Source: Candidatus Nitrosocosmicus agrestis (GTDB taxonomy: Archaea > Thermoproteota > Nitrososphaeria > Nitrososphaerales > Nitrososphaeraceae). Taken from it: a stretch of DNA of 64,000 bases. The notes under the pieces are model-generated. The model was given only the letters and a program-made list of their open reading frames with translations, had not been told where the DNA came from and did not search any database. Shown piece after piece: positions 46,252-62,367 of this stretch (the first letter of the stretch is position 1; each line of letters begins with the position of its first letter). The translations under genes were made by a program, and so were the position numbers. The DNA lies in NCBI RefSeq assembly GCF_008389435.1, contig NZ_VUYS01000003.1, positions 62,001 to 126,000 on the forward strand, given 5' to 3'.

Positions 46252-46407
46252 TCATATTGATCTACACAAAGTTACTTATAACACTGTATTGCTATGAGCC
46301 GACAGAAATATCTGAAAAGAAGAAATCCCAACCAAAACTATTCCTACTATTACTTACTATTTGGAAAAAGCTTAATTCTTCTATAGACCTACAAATTCTA
46401 TCTCCAT

Positions 46408-46961
46408 GTTATCAAAAGCTGAAATCCAATACCTTCAAGGTCATAAACTAGCTTCCAAAACTTATGAAAGGAAGTTAATATGTTTAATCAAAAAAGGTTG
46501 AAGTTTTAGAAACGGAACTGCCACTCTTAACAAGTATGTTTGGGGAAAATATCAAATCCGTATTTTCTGAAATTCTACACGGGAAGGCAGTGGCGCCCCA
46601 CTCCGTGAAGCAGGAGAAAAACGATGACAATACTCAATATTCTAACTATGGAAAGGCCGCTACTGAATTTAGTAATCCATACAATGACCAATTCCATCTA
46701 TTTAACGGAAAAGGCGACATGCATGAAGGCTTACTCAATTCATTGAGGTTGCTTGGCCAGCACAATATCAATGGTGCTACAAAATTTAGTAATGGAAATC
46801 TAGCATCCGCTACTGAATTTAGTAATTTCAACAATATGGATGATTCTTATTCAAAACTTGTAAATATTTCAGCAATGGAATTGTATCATACTAAAAATTT
46901 CAGTAAATCAACTACCGATTGTTTAATTTCTGAGTGGACCGGGTCGGATTTATATTGTTAA
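46408..46961 (+). pseudogene. Frameshifted int(N)-like protein with TEFSN repeats
   Basis: ATG at 46408 gives MLSKAEIQYLQGHKLASKTY, ERKLICLIKKG, then TGA. Removing one A from the A6 run (46487-46493 area) restores VEVLETELPLLTSMFGENIK and the frame continues to the TAA at 46959-46961, about 184 residues in all. The N-terminal part is clearly related to the integrase N-terminal fragment at 50696-51119 (LLSKAEFQFLQGQKVVSKSY, then LDKDLPLLLSLF). The rest has three copies of ATEFSN/ATKFSN. The downstream frame alone (from ATG 46536) would encode 141 residues and may still be expressed. Confidence 0.55.
46659..46826 (+). repeat. Three copies of an 18-bp near-palindromic motif
   Basis: GCTACTGAATTTAGTAAT occurs at 46659-46676 and 46809-46826, and with two changes (GCTACAAAATTTAGTAAT) at 46776-46793. 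Its core is nearly palindromic (ttACTgAATTtAGTaa). Related copies occur in the integrase N-terminal fragment at 50895-50912 and 50944-50961. Confidence 0.7.
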
Positions 46962-50662: not shown

Positions 50663-50737
50663 TGGGCCGGGTCGGATTCGAACCAACGACCCCCGCCATG
50701 TCAAGGCGGTATCTTAACCAGGCTAGACCACCGGCCC
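50663..50737 (-). tRNA. tRNA-Val (GAC anticodon)
   Basis: Read on the minus strand, the sequence folds as a cloverleaf: acceptor GGGCCGG/CCGGCCC with discriminator A, D-stem GTCT/AGAT, anticodon stem CCGCC/GGCGG with loop TTGACAT (anticodon GAC, valine), a five-base variable loop and T-arm GTTGG-TTCGAAT-CCGAC. No intron. CCA is not encoded. The 5' half and the promoter lie inside the 96-bp repeat that bounds the integrated element, so integration has left the gene intact with a repeat copy as its 5' part. Confidence 0.92.
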
Positions 50738-50791
50738 CAATTTGATATTTAGTGAGTTCTTCTTTGTCTTTTATATATAATTGTTGATTAT
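50696..50791. repeat. attL: left copy of 96-bp direct repeat
   Basis: This 96-base sequence is identical to 60219-60314. It covers the anticodon loop to the 5' end of tRNA-Val plus 54 bases upstream, including the TATA box. It marks the left junction of the integrated element; the sequences diverge exactly at both ends (50695/60218 and 50792/60315). Confidence 0.93.
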
Positions 50792-51119
50792 ATTCTCCGT
50801 CAGTGGATTCTATGGGTTTAGTTTGGTTCTTGATGGATTCCAGAACCGCAGTAGCATTTTCTCTTTCTAATTGCTTTTTAATACGTATAGAATTCTTACT
50901 GAATTTAGTAAGATTAATTGAAGTTTCTTCCATGTTGTGATTCTTACCAAATTTAGTAAGATCTAGATTTGGAAATAATGATAAAAGGAGAGGTAGATCC
51001 TTATCTAAGAGGTTAGAAATCTTCTTCTTTACCACTGACTTGAGTTTGTACTCGTATGACTTGGATACAACTTTCTGACCTTGTAAAAACTGAAACTCAG
51101 CTTTAGAGAGAAGTGGCAT
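50696..51119 (-). CDS. Integrase N-terminal fragment, int(N) (split by integration)
   Basis: The frame starts at ATG 51119 (MPLLSKAEFQFLQGQKVVSK). It runs through a helical, basic region (SYEYKLKSVVKKKISNLLDK) and then through the attL repeat, where the tRNA sequence is translated as GAGGLAWLRYRLDM. In the integrated state it reads on 80 bases into chromosomal DNA (stop at 50616). In the excised circle it would instead join in frame to the catalytic part at 59287-60222, giving 451 residues. The region before the repeat is the DNA-binding N-terminal domain. This is the SSV-type int(N). Confidence 0.78.
50768..50780 (-). promoter_or_regulatory. TATA box of tRNA-Val within the att repeat
   Basis: On the minus strand TTATATATAAAAG is centred about 38 bases before the tRNA 5' end, a fair TATA box. 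Because it lies in the repeat, an identical copy at 60291-60303 precedes the integrase catalytic fragment. Confidence 0.5.
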
Positions 51120-51524
51120 AATATTTTAGGAATTATTCGAAATTAATAAGGATTAGCAATTCAAATAACTAGGAGTATCTGAATATACTCAGACTTAATA
51201 GACTACACGTTCCGTTGATTAATTAAGAAATTATCGCATAGCATCAAATAGAAATCTATTTGTTGAATTTTTTCTTTTAATTACATGCCTGCAAACAAGG
51301 GAAGATAATATAATAAGAAAAAATGGAGCAAAAAATAATATTTTCTGTCTATTCTATTTTCATTCTGTCCTAATGCCTATTGAAATTTTGATTATTAGTC
51401 CATCAATAGACAGTATAAAGGACAAATTTATTATTGATTTATTATATGATCTTATTTGATTGCAAAATTAGTATGTTCAATACAGTCAAAAAAAGGTGAT
51501 TACGGTCTTGATTATTGTTTGATT
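51120..51524. other. Gap inside the element
   Basis: About 400 AT-rich bases without a gene. It carries the likely promoter of int(N) next to 51120. Nothing else seen. Confidence 0.5.
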
Positions 51525-51848
51525 TTATCTGGTTGTTGTAAAGTCGGATGGAGGTTGCTCTACCGTTGGGATACATTCACCATTCTGTTGGAAACCTAAA
51601 TTCAAGTTATTGGCGTTTAATGCATTAAATTCTGGTGCAACTGCTTGTCCGTTTGTTTCTGAGGCTTGGTCTTGTTCTGCTCCTTGTTCGGCTTCACTGC
51701 TAGGTTGTTGACCTGCTGCGATATTTCCGCTACACGTTTCCAAAGTAGGTTCAGGAGCAGCAATTGTTGCAAGTGCATTTGGGTTATACAAGCCCAAAAC
51801 TCCTGTTACCAAGAAAGCAGTAAGAATTCCTGTAAATAGTTTATTCAT
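51525..51848 (-). CDS. Small exported Gln/Ala-rich protein (107 aa)
   Basis: A 107-residue protein with a signal peptide (MNKLFTGILTAFLVTGVLGL, cleaved near NALA). The mature part is rich in Gln, Glu and Ala (SSEAEQGAEQDQASETNGQA) and includes VAPEFNALNANNLNLGFQQN with a cysteine on either side (ETCSGN and GECIPT). The middle resembles the EFTALCGNNFNLQLQ block of the 52215 and 62047 proteins, so it belongs to the same loose family. Mobile-element cargo. ATG start. Confidence 0.65.
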   Translation of the reverse strand: MNKLFTGILTAFLVTGVLGLYNPNALATIAAPEPTLETCSGNIAAGQQPSSEAEQGAEQDQASETNGQAVAPEFNALNANNLNLGFQQNGECIPTVEQPPSDFTTTR

Positions 51849-52214
51849 AGTTAAAGTAGAAATTCTAATTCATTTAGCAGTTTTTTATAATAGTTATTTA
51901 GGATTATATGAGAAAAATGTCCTCCTATGAGGAGGATTGACTGTAAGGTTTGTCTGTCTTTGTGATAATCCAATAGGCTAGGAAACAGATTTACCAAAAG
52001 AGAATGGTTTGTTGCCTACAAAATTAAATTTTCTTTCTTATTTTGGTTTATAATATACTCACAGGTCTTGATATATTTTTTACCATGAAGAAGTTGAATT
52101 TTTTGGATTAGAAGAATATGTTAAAAAGCCTGTAACAGAAGCCAAACATCAAAGTGATGAATTATAGCATTACATTGATCTGTTGGACTGGGGATTTTAA
52201 CGACAAAAAATAGT
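51849..52214. other. Gap inside the element, with a short hairpin
   Basis: About 365 bases. An inverted repeat TCCTCC-tatga-GGAGGA (51920-51936) lies about 70 bases upstream of the 51525-51848 gene and could be regulatory. No gene is seen. Confidence 0.4.
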
Positions 52215-52478
52215 TTATTGTTGGCCTAATGCCAAATTGCCCAATTGTTCTTGTAATTGCAAGTTAAAGTTATTTCCACATAATGCGGTAAATTCTCCAG
52301 AAACACATTGGCCGTTTTGTTCACTATCTTGTCCTTGTTCAATTTCTTGTTCTGCATCATTGTGTTTACCTGTGGCAAATGCCATGTTGTTGTCACCAAA
52401 TGTTACTACTGAACCTATGAGAGCTGCTGCAATGAACATCACCGCAATCATTCCGATTTTATTTGTTTTAGTACTCAT
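52215..52478 (-). CDS. Small exported protein ending LALGQQ (element copy)
   Basis: From ATG 52478 the protein has 87 residues. A signal peptide (KIGMIAVMFIAAALIGSVVT, cleaved near AFA) is followed by GKHNDAEQEIEQGQ, GQCVSGEFTALCGNNFNLQL and QEQLGNLALGQQ. The mature part is almost identical to that of the protein at 62047-62310 outside the element. Two cysteines may bond. The last segment (Q-x-G-N-x-A-x2-Q) resembles one curlin-type repeat, which is only a hint. An in-frame TTG at 52496 would add six residues. Confidence 0.72.
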   Translation of the reverse strand: MSTKTNKIGMIAVMFIAAALIGSVVTFGDNNMAFATGKHNDAEQEIEQGQDSEQNGQCVSGEFTALCGNNFNLQLQEQLGNLALGQQ

Positions 52479-53217
52479 TTTAGTCGAAATATACAAGTGA
52501 AATTTGAAATAATATAGTTTGGATTGTTGTTACTGTTATATCTTTGTGAAAAATATTTCAGGTATTGTCTTATTATAAATAATTTCATACTTTTGTTCTT
52601 AAAAATTAAACTCCTAATTTGGATTATCACCGCTCGGGTCTAGCAAGACCCTCGCTATTTGATGACTAGGATAGACAACCAAATGATGATGACCGCGTGG
52701 ATCTTTATTATTAAAAAAAGGTACTATTGTCTATGTCACCTGGAATTTACTAGATGGTTATATATCTGGAGTATTTATTGGTGCCATAAATAGACGATAT
52801 GTTTGCTTTCAACTTAGTTGATGTCCAAAATTAGATTGTCACTGGAGTAAATCTAGGCTGGAGATATATAATGTTTTTAAACCTACCAAGATATTTATGT
52901 TCAAACCCATAGTTTAAGTCGGGCCTTGCATTTTCTTATTCTCCCACGCCGCTCATGCAAGGCTCGAATCTATTGTAATTCTCTGGAAACAATCCAATAA
53001 TTATTGAAAGTTAGATGCAGTACATACCATCCTTTCCTGGCCATTAAATCGCAAACTACCTGACCGACCTGTGACCATTTTTTTATTAGCAACTTATCAT
53101 TAACCTACTTGTTGTTGGTATCTGTAAACTTGGATTGTGCCGAGTTAGTTTAATAGCAATCGATGTTTTTAGAATGAATATAGTCGCTTTTAAACTATGT
53201 TCAATGATGATTGAATA
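52479..53217. other. Gap inside the element with GC-rich hairpins
   Basis: About 740 bases without a convincing gene. Two GC-rich inverted repeats stand out in AT-rich surroundings: GGGTCT-agca-AGACCC (52636-52651) and the 11-bp stem at 52920-52966, listed separately. A small RNA in this gap is possible. Confidence 0.4.
52920..52966. ncRNA. Possible structured RNA: 11-bp stem in GC-rich patch
   Basis: CGGGCCTTGCA (52920-52930) pairs with TGCAAGGCTCG (52956-52966) over 11 positions with one G-U pair, around a 25-base loop. The patch is clearly richer in GC than its surroundings and lies in a 740-base gap. This is only a candidate. Confidence 0.25.
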
Positions 53218-53472
53218 ATGAACATGATTGAAAGTGAAAGTCCTTATTTGGTTGAAGCCAGAACATGTGGATGTAAGGAAAAAGGCAAAAGTGTCTCATA
53301 TCATTTTATCGAATCTGCTCATGGTCTTTGTTTAGAAAAGGGGGAATTAATCTTGGCCGAAATTCAAGCATGTGAGAGGTTATTAAAGTATTCAAAGGAC
53401 GAGGAAGAAATGCAGCTTCTCAAGGATGAAATAACTAAATTAAGGATAGCATTGGATCTAGTACGATACTAA
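53218..53472 (+). CDS. Hypothetical coiled-coil-like protein (84 aa)
   Basis: An 84-residue protein with an N-terminal cysteine pair (ARTCGCKEKGK), a His and Cys (SAHGLCLEKGELIL) and a long helix (LLKYSKDEEEMQLLKDEITK, LRIALDLV) with heptad-like spacing. It could bind a metal through the Cys-x-Cys and His-x3-Cys. ATG at 53218. It lies in the integrated element; the function is unknown. Confidence 0.58.
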   Translation: MNMIESESPYLVEARTCGCKEKGKSVSYHFIESAHGLCLEKGELILAEIQACERLLKYSKDEEEMQLLKDEITKLRIALDLVRY

Positions 53473-53544
53473 GATAAGAAATGGAATATCAAATAAGTAC
53501 TGCTTAAGATATTATACTCATCGACGCACTAAAAAGACTACCAC

Positions 53545-53862
53545 TTATCTTAAATTTTTTGATTCACCAATTGCTTCTTCAATCTTGTCAACATAATCCT
53601 TGACATAAAATTTGATATTATCAATTTGTTTTGGAGATAGTTCAGTTTCTAGTAGTAAGGCCTTTTCAATTGCGTTTGGAAGTTCTTCTATTTTTCTAGG
53701 ATAAGGAATTCTAACACTAATCTCTCCTCTTATAAAATCAATTTCTAAATAAGTTTTTGTTCCTGTTATTTGTGAGATTCCTCTGCTTCTCAGGTAACCG
53801 TTAATTCGTAGTCTAAAAGATTTACCTGAATCGCTTACTATAATATTGTCTAATTCGGACAT
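53545..53862 (-). CDS. Hypothetical protein paired with VapB-like antitoxin (105 aa)
   Basis: A 105-residue mixed alpha/beta protein (FRLRINGYLRSRGISQITG, YLEIDFIRGEISVRIPYPRK, then a helical end). No PIN-domain acids are present, so it is not VapC. Its ATG overlaps the stop of the upstream 48-residue gene (TAATG), which implies translational coupling. The pair's layout is that of a toxin-antitoxin module with an unfamiliar second gene, but it could be another regulatory pair. Confidence 0.6.
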   Translation of the reverse strand: MSELDNIIVSDSGKSFRLRINGYLRSRGISQITGTKTYLEIDFIRGEISVRIPYPRKIEELPNAIEKALLLETELSPKQIDNIKFYVKDYVDKIEEAIGESKNLR

Positions 53863-54008
53863 TACTGGTTTCCTCCATCTTTAAAGTTCTTTACCAGTTT
53901 ACCAATTATCAAATTAAACGTATCACCAGTTTTACCCATTTCTTTTAATATCTCGTAGTTGTCAGAGTCAATCAGAATTTGTTTGTATCTTTTGTTACCT
54001 ATTCTCAT
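53862..54008 (-). CDS. VapB/DUF217-like antitoxin (48 aa)
   Basis: A 48-codon gene (ATG 54008, TAA at 53862-53864) encoding MRIGNKRYKQILIDSDNYEI, LKEMGKTGDTFNLIIGKLVK and a short tail. The order (IxIDxDNYEIL, KxxGDTFxxIIxKLV) matches archaeal VapB-type antitoxins of the DUF217 kind, DNA-binding proteins usually paired with a PIN toxin. Here its stop overlaps the ATG of a 105-residue gene of unknown type. Confidence 0.62.
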   Translation of the reverse strand: MRIGNKRYKQILIDSDNYEILKEMGKTGDTFNLIIGKLVKNFKDGGNQ

Positions 54009-54511
54009 AACATAATTAATACATCGATGATATTTAAATGTTACTTATATGAAGTAATAGTTTAACTATACTCAGTTTTTGTCCAAAAGAATGTTATTAA
54101 AAAATGAGAAATGGTTAATAAAAAAGGAGAGACATCTACCTCCCGTATGAGACTCTTTTTGGTTTTTTTAATTTGAAGATACCTAAATCATCTTAGATAG
54201 TCATCGCAGTTCCTCCCAAATGAAACATGTCCGATATTTATGACAGATTAATTTATTATCTTGATTTTTTTCATATTGAATTCAAATTCTTTTTAAAAAT
54301 ACAAAAATTACACGAATAGAAGGTAAGAGTATTATATATTCAATTGTAAATTGACATGATAATAAAATATTTCTGTTTGTAGATAAGTTTAATATAAATT
54401 ATTTAATTTTTTCATATATAGAATTATCGAAATACAGAATGAGTCATAGCGAATTTGATAGATGGAGAAATTCATTATGCAATCCAACTTGTATTTGCTT
54501 TTTATCTTAAA
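54009..54511. other. Gap inside the element
   Basis: About 500 very AT-rich bases between the antitoxin-like gene and the IS remnant. Nothing is recognised other than likely promoter sequence near 54010-54040. Confidence 0.45.
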
Positions 54512-55466
54512 GCCTATCCTAAAATTAACTTTCTATAGATTATTATACAACATGAGAACTGTATCGGACTAAGATAGTTTTCATCCTTCTTTTCATATCT
54601 TGCGGAGTTTCGTAAACCTGTTATGCCATGAGTTTGTCCTTTCCACAACCCATTTTTTAGGGAAGTGTATCTTACGATTTGGTACTGCAATTTCTTCACT
54701 ATCATCGCCTTTCTTCTTTTTCTTCTTCTTGATTGGTACGTGTAAGATGTAGTCTCGTTTGATTAATTCCTGTTCTGCTTCTGCAGAATTATATCATTTA
54801 TCAAGACATAGATGTTGCAATCATCCTCGTCGTCTAGATCTGGATAACGATTTCGGCCTTTTGATGACTGTATTATCAACTACCTCTGTTACGCATTTGG
54901 TGTCATGGGTGCTAGCTGGTAATAATACAACAGAAAAGAGGATACCATGCTTATTGGTTAAAATATGTCTTTTTGTTCAGCCTTGTTTGCTCCTATCTGC
55001 AGTGGGATTATTTCCTGCGGTCTTTTCTCGGCCTAAAGGTGATTTTATTGATATAGAATCTATTGATTCTATGACCAGTTGATACCATTTGTAGCATCAT
55101 AGATTTTCAATGGTCTGCTCCACATCTTTTCAAAGACATCCAGTTTATTCCATGCCTGGAATCTCCTATGACGAGTAGATCCAGAACAGCATTCTTTTGG
55201 AAGCCGTCTCCACTAGCATCCTGTTCTCAGGATGTAGATGATACCGTCAAGAGGCCTTCTGTATTGTTAAACTGGTCGACCAACAGTCTTTGGAGGCTTT
55301 TCTTTAGACATTATCCTCTTAAACTCATCTCCTAACCTTTCTGGAATCCTTGTAATGGCAGGATGAGCGATATTTATTGCTTCCACTTCTTTCTTCCTTC
55401 TGAATGCAGATACCGTCTACAAGGAAAGAAAAGTAGGTAAAACCCAATCGTATTTTAGGATAGGCT
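54512..55466 (-). mobile_element. Degenerate IS5-family insertion sequence
   Basis: The 955-base unit has 15-bp perfect terminal inverted repeats (AGCCTATCCTAAAAT at 54512-54526 and its complement at 55452-55466). On the minus strand a transposase can be read in pieces: IAHPAITRIPERLGDEFKRI, YRRPLDGIIYILRTGC, CCSGSTRHRRFQAWNKLDVF and KRHILTNKHGILFSVV, as in IS5-type DDE transposases, but with many stops and shifts. It is inactive and was inserted in the element. Confidence 0.82.
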
Positions 55467-55657
55467 CTTGGAATGTCTGACATGATTCATAGAAAAATGA
55501 GATGAATTTGACATATTATAATTCACAATTAAATTTGTAATATAAATAATATGTAAAATTGTATTTCATTTTGAAATATTTGCAACTTATCTACATTATC
55601 TCTTTTTCTTCTTGCTCTTATCAATATAGTTATATGAAACTGCGAAGTTAACTTTTC
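55467..55657. other. Short gap before the exported repeat protein
   Basis: About 190 AT-rich bases with likely promoter sequence for the gene at 55658. Nothing else is seen. Confidence 0.4.
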
Positions 55658-56053
55658 ATGAAATTATTAACCAATCCAAATAATAAAAAGTATAAAAACA
55701 AACAAGTTTACAATCAAGTATTTTATGTGACCTTGATAGCATTTTTGTCATTTGTTCTTATTTCAGGGATTACAACGTCGCATGCATTTGCATTAAAAAG
55801 CGTTTCAGACTTGGGAGGTGTTAACCAAAATCCAACTAAGCTAGAAAGAGGTGGTTCAGACTTGGGAGGTGTTAACCAAAATCCAACTAAACAAGGAGGA
55901 GAAGGCGAAGGAGGTTCTTCTAACTTTCAATGTGATAGTAAAACCCATACATGCTCATGTGATCTAACCAAGGAAGATTGCTTTGATTTAGGTGCATCGG
56001 GTCTATGTAAGGATAGAATAGATAACAACGGAGAATGTACATTTAAATATTAA
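55658..56053 (+). CDS. Small exported protein with SDLGGVNQNPTK repeats (131 aa)
   Basis: A 131-residue protein: a basic N-terminus (NKKYKNKQVYNQ), a hydrophobic signal (VTLIAFLSFVLISGITTS, cleaved near HAFA), two 17-residue repeats beginning SDLGGVNQNPTK, a Gly/Glu linker and a cysteine-rich end (FQCDSKTHTCSCDLTKEDCF, LCKDRIDNNGECTF; six cysteines). The end part looks like a disulfide-bonded mini-domain. It is cargo of the element and probably surface-exposed. ATG start. Confidence 0.68.
   Translation: MKLLTNPNNKKYKNKQVYNQVFYVTLIAFLSFVLISGITTSHAFALKSVSDLGGVNQNPTKLERGGSDLGGVNQNPTKQGGEGEGGSSNFQCDSKTHTCSCDLTKEDCFDLGASGLCKDRIDNNGECTFKY
55804..55890 (+). repeat. Two identical 36-bp units, 51-bp period
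   Basis: The segments 55804-55839 and 55855-55890 are identical and encode SDLGGVNQNPTK in the exported protein. The period of 17 codons suggests a recent tandem duplication. Confidence 0.9.
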
Positions 56054-56114
56054 AAGTTTAATTTTGATTGATTTTTAACTATTATTTTGGTTACTACTGT
56101 TCTAATCCATATTT

Positions 56115-56591
56115 TCAAGTGTTTAAAACAGTTTGTGGATTAGAACAGGTAGTTGGAAAGATGATATCGTTTGATAGAGGAATCATGTCACTAAATATCT
56201 TATTTTTTTCCTGCTCTTCAGTAAACTGAAAAAGGCTCCCTAGCTTTGTATTGCTTTCATACCTCTTTATGAATTTGCATATACAGATCTTACTATCCTC
56301 ATCATCTGCCTCATAGTCTATTAATTGGAATACTTTTGTTTCTCCAATCCCGTATTTTAACAGCTCTAAAATTTCAACTTTTAACCATTCTTCAGCAATT
56401 AACTTGAATTTTTTTGGTAAATTCAGCTTAATGAAATGTAAATTATTATCATTTTCTTCTGTATTCGTGTAATTTTTGTATTTAGTCTGTTGGAATAAAG
56501 AAACATCCACAATAGGGTAGTATGCTTTTTTACGTCTATCAATTTTAGATTCAAATTCATCTATTAATCCGTTATTTCGTAATTCTTCCAA
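56115..56591 (-). CDS. Winged-helix protein in frame after the ATPase stop (158 aa)
   Basis: From TTG 56591 the product reads MEELRNNGLIDEFESKIDRR, KKAYYPIVDVSLFQQTKY, a winged-helix pattern, then a helical domain. It is in the same frame as the ATPase gene upstream and is separated from that stop (TGA 56634-56636) by 14 codons that also read well (KGKSITVDAIKKTY). Thus it may be the C-terminal part of a longer protein of about 776 residues interrupted by a nonsense codon, or a separate gene. Confidence 0.6.
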   Translation of the reverse strand: MEELRNNGLIDEFESKIDRRKKAYYPIVDVSLFQQTKYKNYTNTEENDNNLHFIKLNLPKKFKLIAEEWLKVEILELLKYGIGETKVFQLIDYEADDEDSKICICKFIKRYESNTKLGSLFQFTEEQEKNKIFSDMIPLSNDIIFPTTCSNPQTVLNT

Positions 56592-56633
56592 GTACGTCTT
56601 TTTAATTGCATCAACTGTTATTGATTTTCCCTT

Positions 56634-58448
56634 TCATTCTTTGAATGAATCGGCCAGTTCATTAGTATATACTGCCACCCTGTCCTCTCTAGTTGTACCA
56701 TCTTCCTTTTCTTCTGGACCCTCTTTTGATTGAAACAGAGGGACAAACACTTCCCTAAAGAAATCTAATTTGTAAGAGGGGATTCCAGTGATATTTTGAG
56801 TTAGTTTCAAGACCTCTCTTAAATCTTCTAGTGAGGATATAGACATTATTTCATTTCCGAATTTTAATTTAAAACGGTTAAAGGAGTTACTCTTTGTGAC
56901 TATATTCAATAAGGAAAATATCCTGTTTGCTATCCTAACATCAGTTCCTTTCTCTGATGGCAAAGAATGAGTGAGTATCTTCTGATATGGTATCCATACC
57001 CCATTTTCATAGCTTGCTAACAGTTCATCTTTAATTATACTTATGCAATCTTTGGCAATCTGCGTCTCATCTTGGGAAACTATGAGCTGTTCCTGCACCA
57101 ATGAAGGTAACCCAGATCTCTGTCCAATCAGGATGGTAGATTCAAGATATTTTTGCTTTATCATGTTAGGAGGAGTTATAAGAAACCTACTTTGAATCTC
57201 AGGCCACATCGGCCAATTGGACTCATCTTTAGCACTGCAAAAGATACAGGCAGGCCATCCTCTTGTTACAATGTGTTTTACCTCCATTCCCTTAGTTTCT
57301 GTTTTGTATACGTATGGATGTTCGATTTCATATGTATAGTGTGAAAGTATTGGTTTTAAAATATCCCAAGTTTCTTTATGTGGAGGTTCAAGAAAAACTA
57401 AGACTTTTCCTGACAAATCTATCAAAACTTTGGAATTTTTATGTATTTCTTTGAGCTGCTGAGTTAAATTGCTTTCTTCATCTTTGTTACTATTTTTTTG
57501 TGATTTCTTTAACTGTTCTGTCAAATCTTGCACTTTCTGCTCAATTGGTTTATTATTTTCATCTACCAGGATTCCTCTATCTCGTATTATTACCTTGGGA
57601 GACATGCTTCCAATCATCCAGACATCTTTTGTTGGGAGAAACTTTGTCATCTCCGTTACTGGATAGGTTTTGCCTTCGCTTGTCGGAGCAATTATTCCTA
57701 AGTTGAGTGGGTTTTTTGTATAGGTGCTTAATCCTGTATAAAGTAATAGATTGACAAGTGAATGCTCTTGCTTTATTGTTTTTTTGGCTATTTTATTTAC
57801 ATATTCTACCAAGTTCTTGCCAGCTATTTTTTCAAAGATTACTTGTTTATCTAAATCTTCTCCGTTAAACACATTTTCCGAATATGAATTTACATCGCTC
57901 TTACTCAGTTTACTTCCTGTATTAGTAATAGAATTCGATTTCAAAGTCATAGACTGTTTCGTTATTCCTGGTTCAAGAACGTGAGGTCCGTTAGAATCAT
58001 ACTCATTTTTTAAAAATTCTTTGATAGAGTCCAGAGCATAATTATTAGATATACCGTTTATGAAAATCCGCATTCTATCTTCATTTGAATATAGGATTGA
58101 GAATAAGGTTTGTTTAATTAGCCTTGCTTCTTCCGATGTTCGGTCTTTTATCTGTGAATCTATTTCTCTTTCTAAAATACTCCAGTCGATCTCTATTTCC
58201 CCATTTTTATCCTTATATTGAATTCTGGATTTGATTATTCCATGTCTTCTAGTCTCAATAATAGTATCAAATCGGTTTGTTATATCCACGGAAAAAATTA
58301 TATCTAGACTGGACCTTGGAATAGGAAGCCATAATATTACACTAGGTGGTATATATTCAATATCATGGTTGATAAGTTCATTATCAGGTGAACTGGCTTC
58401 TATGGTCAATCCCTCAAATAGTTCGTCAAAAGATTTTTTTATTGACAT
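56634..58448 (-). CDS. P-loop ATPase of the mobile element, probable replication protein
   Basis: A 604-residue protein with Walker A APTSEGKT (residues 254-261) and Walker B KVLVFLEPP (348-356). A lysine/glutamate-rich insert lies between (about 295-340). The C-terminal part, after CIFCSAKDESNWPMWPEIQS and SRFLITPP, resembles a helicase-like core followed by DNA-binding helices. The N-terminal 200 residues are unfamiliar. Its position and size suggest a replication helicase or initiator for the element; this is inference. ATG at 58448. The frame is open past its TGA into a winged helix. Confidence 0.62.
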   Translation of the reverse strand: MSIKKSFDELFEGLTIEASSPDNELINHDIEYIPPSVILWLPIPRSSLDIIFSVDITNRFDTIIETRRHGIIKSRIQYKDKNGEIEIDWSILEREIDSQIKDRTSEEARLIKQTLFSILYSNEDRMRIFINGISNNYALDSIKEFLKNEYDSNGPHVLEPGITKQSMTLKSNSITNTGSKLSKSDVNSYSENVFNGEDLDKQVIFEKIAGKNLVEYVNKIAKKTIKQEHSLVNLLLYTGLSTYTKNPLNLGIIAPTSEGKTYPVTEMTKFLPTKDVWMIGSMSPKVIIRDRGILVDENNKPIEQKVQDLTEQLKKSQKNSNKDEESNLTQQLKEIHKNSKVLIDLSGKVLVFLEPPHKETWDILKPILSHYTYEIEHPYVYKTETKGMEVKHIVTRGWPACIFCSAKDESNWPMWPEIQSRFLITPPNMIKQKYLESTILIGQRSGLPSLVQEQLIVSQDETQIAKDCISIIKDELLASYENGVWIPYQKILTHSLPSEKGTDVRIANRIFSLLNIVTKSNSFNRFKLKFGNEIMSISSLEDLREVLKLTQNITGIPSYKLDFFREVFVPLFQSKEGPEEKEDGTTREDRVAVYTNELADSFKE

Positions 58449-58608
58449 CTTTATTCATGGCCTCCGTTTGGTCCAAAGGTAATGTATACATCGAAATGGT
58501 TATTAGTGAACTTTGTGTTAATTACAATATTAGTAGTTAAAATCGTTCAACTCCTAATTCGTCACAGCTGAGGAGATTGCACTCTCCTCAACTGCATTTG
58601 CTATTACC

Positions 58609-58755
58609 ATGTTCTTTCTAATGCTTACCGATGTTTTAGATACGATACAAGAAGTTGCAAAGTTGTTGCTACCAGTATGGATCCAATTATTCCTGCCCTT
58701 AGCGCAGGATAAAATAATGCTACTCGTCATTAGTTTTATCATGTTGGCTAACTAA
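58609..58755 (+). CDS. Doubtful small membrane protein (48 aa)
   Basis: A plus-strand frame from ATG 58609 encodes MFFLMLTDVLDTIQEVAKLL, LPVWIQLFLPLA, a short linker and IMLLVISFIMLAN, with two hydrophobic segments. The frame extends 16 codons upstream without a start (VTAEEIALSSTAFAIT). Viral and plasmid genomes often carry such small membrane proteins. The opposite-strand frame (58554-58742) is an alternative but looks less protein-like. Confidence 0.33.
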   Translation: MFFLMLTDVLDTIQEVAKLLLPVWIQLFLPLAQDKIMLLVISFIMLAN

Positions 58756-58767
58756 AATAATCGTTAC

Positions 58768-58788
58768 TAATACTATAAAGTAGTATTA
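58768..58788. promoter_or_regulatory. Dyad 1 upstream of the AbrB-type gene (8-5-8)
   Basis: TAATACTA, spacer taaag, TAGTATTA: a perfect 8-bp inverted repeat with 5-base spacer. It lies in the region between the large ATPase gene and the AbrB-type gene. Confidence 0.5.
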
Positions 58789-58823
58789 ATATAGTTACCA
58801 CTACAAATTAAATATATATAGCT

Positions 58824-58844
58824 AATTCTAACATTATTAGAATT
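58824..58844. promoter_or_regulatory. Dyad 2 upstream of the AbrB-type gene (8-5-8)
   Basis: AATTCTAA, spacer catta, TTAGAATT: again a perfect 8-bp inverted repeat with 5-base spacer, 56 bases from dyad 1. Both fit operators for a dimeric regulator. Confidence 0.5.
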
Positions 58845-58963
58845 AAGCGCCTTAATAAATGCTTCTTTGTTTTTGACTGGCCGTAAAAAATTTATTAGTT
58901 TGTGATACTGTGTCGTGAATCTTGATTAACTTCATATTTTTCTGCCTTCTTTTATTATCTGTT

Positions 58964-59251
58964 ATGATTAGAGGCAAAGTAATAGGAGACTCCAGGATTT
59001 TAAAGAGAGGCATGGTTACAATTCCAGTTAAAGTGCGAGAAAAATTACGAGTTAAGGAAGGAGATTTCCTAACATATATTGAGACAAGTAATGGACAGAT
59101 TAGAATAATCAAGTCCGAGTTTGATATTGATGAGATGGTAAAACAGATAGAGCAATTAAGAAAAAAGAACTTATTATCAATTGACGAGAAAGTCGATATA
59201 AGAAAGTCATTTGAAAACTTTATGCGCAACCTTCCAGATAAGTATGATTAG
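58964..59251 (+). CDS. AbrB/SpoVT-type transcription regulator
   Basis: From ATG 58964 the protein has 95 residues. Residues 1-45 (MIRGKVIGDSRILKRGMVTI, PVKVREKLRVKEGDFLTYIE) form a swapped-hairpin AbrB DNA-binding domain. The rest is helical (DEMVKQIEQLRKKNLLSIDE, VDIRKSFENF) and may dimerise. It could repress the element's genes. A TTG at 58922 would add a hydrophobic leader and is unlikely. It converges with int(C), 35 bases away. Two 8-5-8 dyads lie upstream. Confidence 0.82.
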   Translation: MIRGKVIGDSRILKRGMVTIPVKVREKLRVKEGDFLTYIETSNGQIRIIKSEFDIDEMVKQIEQLRKKNLLSIDEKVDIRKSFENFMRNLPDKYD

Positions 59252-59286
59252 ACCTAAGTTGGGTAATACAGATAGTGATTTTTCAA

Positions 59287-60222
59287 TTAGTCTATTAACT
59301 CTTTCATCAACTCATCCAATAGTGGCCTTATCCTCTTTGTAATTATTTCGTTTATGTCTGGCCTGTAATAATGTCTGAGAAACATGGATTTTGGAATTCT
59401 TCCCTGTGACAAATCTATTATTTCAGGCTCGATTCCCTTGTCTCTTAAGTAAGTAGCAAAAATTTTTCTGCAGTAATACATATTCATCGAAAGATTCATA
59501 GCTCTAAAAATTTTACACAATTGAGGATACGGCTTTTTAATATCTGCTCTCTCTGCAATTACAATAATCTGTTCTGAGACCAAACTGATGAAAACCTTTT
59601 TAGTTCTTCTTAGGAAGGTGTCTGGATATTGATAGTGAAGGAGCTTGTCCTTGCTAACATAATGGTCTTTATTATTCTGAATTAATCTTATACTATGCCA
59701 GCATTCAGAAGGTCTTAATCCGGTTAATGTAGCAAACAATAGAATATTGCTATACTTATTGGGTAACTGTCTAATCGTGTCTTTTAACCAGTGAATCATT
59801 TTATTCATGTCTGCCGCTTCAGGGTTAAAGATCTTAAAGAAAGTGTTATTTGTGTAGTTGCTGTTGGTCCATTTTAGGTCAAACTTCTCAATTAGTTTTT
59901 TCCATTCGTCGTGAGTTCCATGAAACTTGGATAATGATGATAAAGCTTTCATTACATGAATACTTTTTTCCTGAGTTAGTAGTTGAAGATCAGATGCATT
60001 TTTTGTCTCTAAAATGTAATGATATTGCTTAGCATATCTGAATAGATTGGAAGCAGTAGTCTTGCTGACTCTTGATAACAAATATTTCTTGTAGCTGTCC
60101 CATTTCACTTCATTTTCTTGGGACTTTTTAGATTCTTTGTTTTCTGTAGATATTTGATTTGCTGGTAATGTTTGTTTATCAAATTCTTTATCAATTATAT
60201 TAAGATCGTTACCATTGTCCAT
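59287..60222 (-). CDS. SSV-type tyrosine integrase, catalytic part, int(C)
   Basis: A 311-residue fragment with the tyrosine-recombinase catalytic set: R170 in LTGLRPSECW, K208/209 in LRRTKKVFIS, R252 in YYCRKIFATYL and the nucleophile Y285/286 in FLRHYYRPDI, preceded by the QGR motif seen in archaeal viral integrases. The ATG (60222) lies inside the 96-bp repeat, in the part that is the tRNA anticodon loop. In the circular form it would be residues 141-451 of a protein begun at 51119. It catalyses integration and excision at tRNA-Val. Confidence 0.87.
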   Translation of the reverse strand: MDNGNDLNIIDKEFDKQTLPANQISTENKESKKSQENEVKWDSYKKYLLSRVSKTTASNLFRYAKQYHYILETKNASDLQLLTQEKSIHVMKALSSLSKFHGTHDEWKKLIEKFDLKWTNSNYTNNTFFKIFNPEAADMNKMIHWLKDTIRQLPNKYSNILLFATLTGLRPSECWHSIRLIQNNKDHYVSKDKLLHYQYPDTFLRRTKKVFISLVSEQIIVIAERADIKKPYPQLCKIFRAMNLSMNMYYCRKIFATYLRDKGIEPEIIDLSQGRIPKSMFLRHYYRPDINEIITKRIRPLLDELMKELID

Positions 60223-60314
60223 GTCAAGGCGGTATCTTAACCAGGCTAGACCACCGGCCCCAATTTGATATTTAGTGAGTTCTTCTTTGTCTTTTATATA
60301 TAATTGTTGATTAT
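60219..60314. repeat. attR: right copy of 96-bp direct repeat
   Basis: Identical to 50696-50791. It contains the tRNA-Val promoter and the 5' half of the tRNA, cut at the anticodon loop, followed on the minus strand at once by int(C). It marks the right junction of the element. Confidence 0.93.
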
Positions 60315-60568
60315 GATTTGTCTCTCGATATTACATTTACATTACTTTGCTCTTGATTAATTGTAGTGATGTCTAACATATATTGATTTTATTTTTATCT
60401 TCTAATCTATAATTATGGATTACATATATCCTTTGGAAATTTATATAACGAAATTAATTCAATAAATTTAATAATTCGACATAACATATTACTCGAACAA
60501 AATCTTCTCAGATATTTTTGTGCAATAGTAACATAATCTCGATATAACATACTGCAATTTGATAATTA

Positions 60569-60847
60569 ATGTTCAGTAAGTCTCTAAAAAAACCTACTAT
60601 AGGATATTCAATAGCAATGCTCCTTTTGATTACTGTTGCACTTTCCGCAAACGGTATGTCGTATGGGTTTATGGGTTTCAATTTAGGTGGAAGTGATACT
60701 AGCCAAGACCGCTCAATCACCAGCACACAAAGTTCTTCTCAAGGTTCATATTGTTATGCCCCTCCTAATGCAACGATAATCAATTCTTGCAATTCAGGTG
60801 ATCTCTCGACAAGCCAAAATACTGGACTTAATCTGTTAGGGCAATAA
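60569..60847 (+). CDS. Small exported protein (92 aa)
   Basis: A 92-residue protein with a signal peptide (GYSIAMLLLITVALSANGMS), a Ser/Thr/Gln-rich body (DTSQDRSITSTQSSSQGS), two cysteines (SYCYAPPN and NSCNSGD) and the end GLNLLGQ. The end resembles the LALGQQ tail of neighbouring small exported proteins. It lies just outside the element's right end and is transcribed away from it. Function unknown. Confidence 0.62.
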   Translation: MFSKSLKKPTIGYSIAMLLLITVALSANGMSYGFMGFNLGGSDTSQDRSITSTQSSSQGSYCYAPPNATIINSCNSGDLSTSQNTGLNLLGQ

Positions 60848-61419: not shown

Positions 61420-61749
61420 ATGTTATCTGAGAAAAGGAATACATCAATAATGGTAACAATTGCTATTGCATCACTAGTGGTAGCAATTATCCCTGCAATC
61501 GTCACCTCTGATTCCTATTTTGCATTCGCACATTCATGTCATAATCATGATCACGATGATGATGATGACGACCATGATCACGATGACGACAATAGTAAAT
61601 CTAATGAAGCAGAACAAAGTATATCTCAAGGGCAATTTTCAGTTCAAAGTAGTCAAGTCGTATCCGGCGGAGATTCAATTGGATCCGGAAATAACGTTGG
61701 CTTATTCTTTAACGACAACATTGGCAATTTGGCATTAGGCCAACAATAA
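61420..61749 (+). CDS. Small exported His/Asp-rich protein ending NLALGQQ (109 aa)
   Basis: A 109-residue protein with a signal peptide (MVTIAIASLVVAIIPAIVTS, cleaved near AFA). A His/Asp cluster (HNHDHDDDDDDHDHDDD) likely binds metal ions. The body (NEAEQSISQGQFSVQSSQVV) leads to the tail NIGNLALGQQ. The last nine codons, the stop and the following T-run are identical, in inverted orientation, to those of the 62047 gene, which converges on it. ATG start. Extracytoplasmic. Confidence 0.7.
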   Translation: MLSEKRNTSIMVTIAIASLVVAIIPAIVTSDSYFAFAHSCHNHDHDDDDDDHDHDDDNSKSNEAEQSISQGQFSVQSSQVVSGGDSIGSGNNVGLFFNDNIGNLALGQQ

Positions 61750-62037: not shown

Positions 62038-62073
62038 AAAAAAAGTTTATTGTTGGCCTAATGCCAAATTGCC
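62038..62073 (-). repeat. 36-bp inverted repeat, copy 2 (gene tail plus T-run)
   Basis: Reverse complement of 61723-61758; here it forms the tail of the 62047 gene on the minus strand. A third, slightly different copy ends the element gene at 52215. Confidence 0.85.
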
Positions 62074-62310
62074 TAATTGTTCTTGCAATTGCAAGTTAAA
62101 GTTATTTCCACATAATGCAGTAAATTCTCCAGAAACACATTGGCCGTTTTGTTCATTACCTTGTCCCTGTTCAATTTCTTGTTCTGCATCATTGTGTTTG
62201 CCTGTGGCAAATGCCATGTTATCTCCAAATGAGACAATCGATCCGACGAGTGCAGCTGCAACAAAAATTGCAACTATCCCAACCTTATAGTTCTTTGTTA
62301 TGTAACTCAT
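62047..62310 (-). CDS. Small exported protein ending LALGQQ (chromosomal copy)
   Basis: From ATG 62310 (87 residues) the protein has a signal peptide (KVGIVAIFVAAALVGSIVSF, cleaved near AFA) and a mature part nearly identical to the element-borne protein at 52215-52478 (GKHNDAEQEIEQGQ, GQCVSGEFTALCGNNFNLQL, QEQLGNLALGQQ). The two genes also match closely at the DNA level over about 180 bases, so one is a recent copy of the other. An earlier in-frame start at 62319 is possible. Confidence 0.72.
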   Translation of the reverse strand: MSYITKNYKVGIVAIFVAAALVGSIVSFGDNMAFATGKHNDAEQEIEQGQGNEQNGQCVSGEFTALCGNNFNLQLQEQLGNLALGQQ

Positions 62311-62367
62311 TATAATCATTATGTATTATCGAAATTAATCATATCAAAGTTTGGATACTTGTTACTG

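Follow-up and report, generated by a model that had tools for sequence, protein, structure and literature searches.

The tRNA-Val locus and the genes between its repeats

On the minus strand of the window (the whole 64-kb stretch of DNA analysed here), ARAGORN calls an intact tRNA-Val(GAC) gene, part of which belongs to the first of two direct repeats (Table 1). The repeats, described as identical over 96 bases in an earlier note on this sequence, match at all 96 positions in a direct comparison and diverge immediately on either side. Each contains the first 42 nt (5′ half) of the tRNA gene, including the anticodon, and 54 bp of upstream DNA. Two integrase reading frames on the same strand run into these repeats. 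The int(N) frame starts at ATG 51119 and continues through the left repeat into the tRNA gene, and int(C) has its own start at ATG 60222, inside the att repeat and directly 3′ of the GAC anticodon triplet. Traced back across the right repeat, the int(C) frame is closed by the stop codon 60331-60333. When int(N) and int(C) are fused across a single repeat copy, they give 1,356 nt, i.e. 451 codons plus a stop codon with no internal stops, in agreement with the restoration of the frame that the note had claimed.

Table 1 Features of the tRNA-Val locus (positions refer to the window)
Feature	Position	Strand	Remarks
tRNA-Val(GAC), intact, 75 nt	50663..50737	-	ARAGORN; 5′ half and upstream DNA inside attL repeat, 3′ half chromosomal
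att repeat beside int(N) (attL)	50696..50791	-	Identical to 60219-60314
TATA-like box (ATTATATA), putatively of tRNA-Val	50774..50781	-	Within the int(N) frame, at 44-37 nt 5′ of the tRNA
int(N): N-terminal helical domain (~residues 1-50) and linker	50696..51119	-	Alignment of 34 sequences shows the domain conserved
18-bp dyad in int(N) linker, codes LTKFSK	50895..50912		One of two window matches; codon freeze
18-bp dyad in int(N) linker, codes LTKFGK	50943..50960		48 bp from the first dyad
Integrated element (very probable)	50792..60218		Predicted circle: element plus one repeat copy, 9,523 bp
Two small genes	53545..54008	-	Homologues inside split elements of G007 (one gene) and G008 (both)
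P-loop replication-type gene	56115..58448	-	In-frame stop 56634-56636, giving ORFs 56634-58448 and 56115-56591
AbrB/MazE-type regulator	58922..59251	+	PF04014, E 1.3e-6; TIGR01439, E 1.1e-6, just below cut-off
int(C): tyrosine recombinase catalytic part, 311 aa	59287..60222	-	PF16795, phrog_5127
att repeat beside int(C) (attR), with TATA-like box	60219..60314	-	96/96 identity

Apart from the integrase, the recognisable genes between the repeats are the P-loop gene, the AbrB/MazE-type regulator gene and the two small genes. The P-loop gene has homologues of ~880 aa with an N-terminal Prim-Pol domain, a part that the window gene lacks. With this part missing and an in-frame stop present, the element may no longer replicate alone, and the stop in its replication gene makes it look partly decayed. 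Several broken frames at 54500-55500 resemble, by eye, a decayed insertion sequence. Small proteins with signal-like starts are encoded inside the element (51525-51848 and 52215-52496) as well as in the right flank (60569-60847, 61420-61749 and 62047-62319); those at 52215 and 62047 share the C-terminus NLALGQQ and are members of a family with multiple copies in the genus.

The integrase family and its tRNA targets

The int(C) product matched PF16795 (Phage_integr_3, the SSV integrase domain; E 1.3e-7, 32.1 bits at a cut-off of 27) and the integrase family phrog_5127 (E 1.1e-9). The catalytic residues R170, K208, R252 and R275 and the nucleophilic Y285 are invariant in 13/13 sequences, and the H-Y pair of the family aligns with H313/Y314 of SSV1. 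A family profile of seven joined relatives aligned with five SSV-type integrases over the core-binding and catalytic parts (hhalign 96%, E 1.6e-9); against the PDB, the SSV1 integrase was its sole match, a weak one (E 0.03). A structure model of int(C) (mean pLDDT 71), whose top Foldseek matches include archaeal XerA and the SSV1 integrase (E 0.016-0.36), is likewise consistent with an SSV-type integrase. The modelled N-terminal domain (helices 6-13, 20-48 and 55-63) had no match in the PDB, and this domain is an archaeal family separate from SSV. In a tree with SSV as the only other suicidal integrase family, the integrases of the host family form one group apart from SSV, each group on a long branch. 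The family shares with SSV1 and SSV2 a probably homologous catalytic core and the position of att inside the integrase gene, just past a short N-terminal region; in SSV1, the att site (1735-1778) lies at approximately codons 64-78 of ORF D-335 (961-1968).

The search for the joined protein that the note had proposed yielded relatives within the host family and none in viral contigs (tblastn). In a survey of 70 Nitrososphaeraceae genomes, comprising Nitrosocosmicus and other members of the family, integrase relatives are encoded in 27/70 and the N-terminal domain in 28/70. Against phages and plasmids, tblastn returned weak SSV-like matches and nothing else. Nine elements, the one in the window and eight more, give an in-frame join; their exact repeats measure 26-99 bp and contain tRNA parts. 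The repeats hold the 5′ half of a tRNA in sense orientation in the window element (Val, exact repeat of 96 bp) and in G007 (Arg(TCG)), and the 5′ part of tRNA-Glu, assigned by reading the sequence, on contig 27 of the same genome as the window. A tRNA 3′ half in sense orientation is used in G013, G008, G025, G029 and on contig 8 of the window's genome, and the 3′ end of Ser(GGA) in antisense in G006 (anticodons of intron-bearing tRNAs are ARAGORN calls and may be off). The occurrence of 5′-sense, 3′-sense and 3′-antisense tRNA targets within one integrase clade is new and opens the switch of target side to study; the 5′-sense type does not form one single branch in the integrase tree. In all nine elements att is placed after the conserved N-terminal domain and ahead of the catalytic part, and the tRNA-derived peptide therefore falls in a variable linker. 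Two further candidate pairs (G026 and G013:C105) were rejected as support, having no in-frame join and a stop in both int(C).

The unsplit order of int(N), half tRNA and int(C) was found on two decayed contigs, with tRNA-Gln in G009 and tRNA-Glu in G010. Intact tRNAs lie directly downstream of many int(N) loci, comprising Val, Arg and Glu in sense and Gln, Ser, Tyr, Thr, Arg and Val in antisense orientation. At a further locus (L171, G062:C18), a tRNA-Val is placed between two int(N) domains, each reading into one tRNA end, which suggests that both halves of a single tRNA gene have been targeted.

Direct repeats could also arise by tandem duplication or homologous recombination, with the open joined frame being a coincidence. 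For one element with a 96-bp repeat this could be chance, as two frames agree in phase in 1 of 3 cases by chance alone. However, the same in-frame join in eight further elements at different tRNAs excludes a chance phase match, and homologous int(N) sequences stand beside the tRNA across species even though the insert is absent there, so that we regard this origin as highly improbable. The partition of an SSV-type integrase on integration, as proposed in the earlier note, fits the PF16795 match, the SSV core alignment and the sites of the relatives. That note had also named two arrangements that would speak against it, a full-length relative without int(N) and an insert-free site without a repeat copy; every full-length relative had the int(N) domain, and insert-free sites in the genus carry one copy of the tRNA 5′ half.

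Altogether, the locus is very likely occupied by an integrated mobile element of 9.5 kb, probably plasmid-like, whose tyrosine integrase is of the suicidal (SSV) type. In the presumed free circle, one gene for a 451-residue integrase would span attP, with the tRNA-derived att inside the linker between the small N-terminal domain and the core-binding and catalytic part. On recombination with the tRNA-Val(GAC) 5′ half, int(N) would become joined to an intact tRNA (attL), and int(C) would end up at the opposite end of the element (attR). Neither a free circle nor an intact full-length integrase gene was seen in the sequences examined. With the complete integrase gene lost, integration should be hard to reverse.

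Nitrososphaera evergladensis, the host of the element NitEve-E3, presumably belongs to the same family as the window host. NitEve-E3 was singled out among 74 thaumarchaeal elements for its split SSV1-like integrase, and all but one (CalSub-E1) of the tRNA-targeting elements in that survey use the 3′-distal tRNA part (PMC6563490). In contrast, the window, Arg and Glu elements use the tRNA 5′ part, as CalSub-E1 does. Suicidal integrases and their splitting are well described, as a development of hyperthermophilic archaea (PMC8371274). This archaeal peculiarity is extended by the present family to ammonia-oxidising soil archaea and to many tRNA genes. In the open-licence literature, suicidal integrases and Nitrososphaer- occurred together only in the review PMC8371274, which is weak evidence of novelty.

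The putative tRNA promoter region and int(N) remnants

Upstream of the tRNA, a box similar to the TATA-like box of the window and starting at -47 to -39 is present in 14/14 aligned sequences, where it is the best-conserved block. Copies with a disrupted int frame retain it, as do species without int(N). The box probably drives tRNA-Val. In the window it lies inside the repeat and inside int(N), and is therefore present in attL as well as attR. Since att extends 54 bp upstream, the tRNA retains an identical TATA-box region, which after integration would be supplied by DNA doubling as int(N) coding sequence. At attR, the same box would stand ahead of int(C), the frame of which would restart at the ATG in the anticodon loop, and this copy could drive int(C).

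Upstream DNA is likewise included in the sense/5′-half repeats of the other two elements, with 89 bp for Arg (5 mismatches) and 123 bp for Glu (1 mismatch), as compared to the 96 bp for Val; in the Arg element, the TATA-like stretch is identical between the repeat copies. It is uncommon for attP and attB to be identical over 54 bp beyond the tRNA, and this is explained only in part. A similar use of the tRNA 5′ half as attB is known from pTN3 (Thermococcus nautili) and TKV4. However, pTN3 shares 41 bp, and its tRNA was described as "separated from its original promoter" (PMC5495485), whereas the 96 bp of the window include the TATA-like region; this comparison is by description, and the host of pTN3 belongs to a different archaeal class.

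The tRNA-Val gene is identical or nearly so in 11/11 same-genus genomes inspected. An int(N) remnant abuts it in G005, G007, G008, G009, G012, G016, G017 and G018, with some frames open and some broken, and G010 retains the int(N) start 1 kb from tRNA-Val; a sense-strand int(N) at tRNA-Val was not found in G006 and G013. The 9.4-kb insert is absent as a unit from this locus in relatives. In most genomes having the right-flank ORF (60569-60847), its distance from tRNA-Val is 1.5-4 kb, with no int(C) between the two in those same-genus genomes. G016 carries an older attL/attR pair (100/104 identical), in which the tRNA half of attR is decayed and continues to provide the start of an int(C), whose first codons are retained beside a diverged 5′-half copy; this pair is an older insertion at the same site. 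In the window, the sequence just outside attR (60315-60374) matches int(N) DNA at 26/60 positions versus 15.6 expected (p = 0.002). This one test prompts the suggestion that attB itself may be an old int(N) fossil, the site having been scarred by an earlier insertion.

The persistence of solo int(N) remnants at putative tRNA promoters is a new observation. Such remnants may last as fossils because a deletion of int(N) would harm the putative tRNA promoter. With the putative tRNA promoter inside the scar, solo int(N) remnants thus provide a testable reason for permanent integration scars.

Alternatively, int(C) with its 311 aa could be a complete integrase expressed in attR from a tRNA-type promoter, with int(N) as an optional or regulatory extension and an element that is not suicidal. 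It has the core-binding and catalytic parts, an ATG inside att and a duplicated TATA-like box in attR. In addition, Int(C) of SSV1 and SSV2 is weakly active in vitro, and that of TKV4 is apparently expressed (PMC8371274). Against this, all intact pairs tested conserve the N-terminal domain as well as an open frame across att, which argues for the full protein as the working form, and the solo int(N) remnants represent loss other than by precise excision. We consider a complete int(C) unlikely and favor the suicidal integrase, for which "irreversible" may nevertheless be too strong a term, as int(C) alone might be active.

An 18-bp dyad in the integrase linker

The dyad CTTACY-N6-RGTAAG has two matches in the window, both in int(N), compared to an expectation of 0.10. 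At this dyad the int(N) of relatives encodes LTxFSK, and the codons used are frozen (Leu CTT 35/35, Lys AAG 33/35, Ser AGT 36/37); the p values versus background, 9e-12 to 1e-28, are too small, since the sequences are related. On the int(C) side, the dyad is in a different frame and read as LPNSVR. An integrase-linker dyad whose reading frame differs between the N- and C-side of att is new. LTxFSK as a peptide motif alone was rejected, because the codons are frozen and the same DNA reads LPNSVR on the C side. Two loci with GTTACT...AGTAAC show a paired change of both outer bases.

Across 15 same-genus genomes, the dyad has 58 matches versus 11 for the reversed control. Integrase hits account for 47/58. 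The remaining 11 include four next to weak integrase remnants and another two close to a tRNA-Thr. The shorter form TACY-N6-RGTA occurs twice per joined attP in 7/9 elements and once in 2/9 (expected 0.03). A C-side dyad is present in 5/5 3′-sense elements versus 0/4 others. SSV integrases differ in this respect, as none of five SSV-type integrase genes has a TACY-N6-RGTA dyad, and are separated from the present family by a very long branch.

The dyads may be arm-type or accessory sites. They might instead be an operator for an int regulator, or form an RNA hairpin. The symmetry fits regulators that act as dimers, an AbrB-type protein is encoded by the window element, and perfect copies could fold as RNA too. 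However, copies flank the att core on both sides in the 3′-sense elements, both window dyads are within the int gene rather than upstream of it, and their number is about two per attP. We rate the operator or hairpin reading somewhat below an even chance. Should the dyads act on int, a possible parallel would be the bacterial KplE1 intS, reported as a new paradigm of integrase gene regulation (PMC2951348).

With arm-type or accessory sites, one could tentatively, at a little under even odds, envisage a whole attachment module inside the integrase ORF, consisting of the tRNA core and a dyad pair. Dyad placement would suit the tRNA half used, with one dyad on each side in 3′-sense and both on the N-side in 5′-sense elements, and dependence of the host tRNA on the int(N) promoter would fix int(N) as a fossil. 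Archaeal integrases have been described as requiring no essential helper or directionality factors (PMC8371274). If confirmed, the dyads, conserved at the DNA level in two reading frames, would represent arm-type or accessory sites in archaeal integrases.

Two loci in the genus, L199 (G008) and L202 (G016), carry dyads within ~70-100 bp of tRNA-Thr where an integrase is not detectable; these are possible last traces of vanished elements.

A second int(N)-like frame of the window, at 46403-46960 on the plus strand and thus in the opposite orientation, has no tRNA nearby; it is broken and carries a long linker with ATEFSN/ATKFSN repeats.
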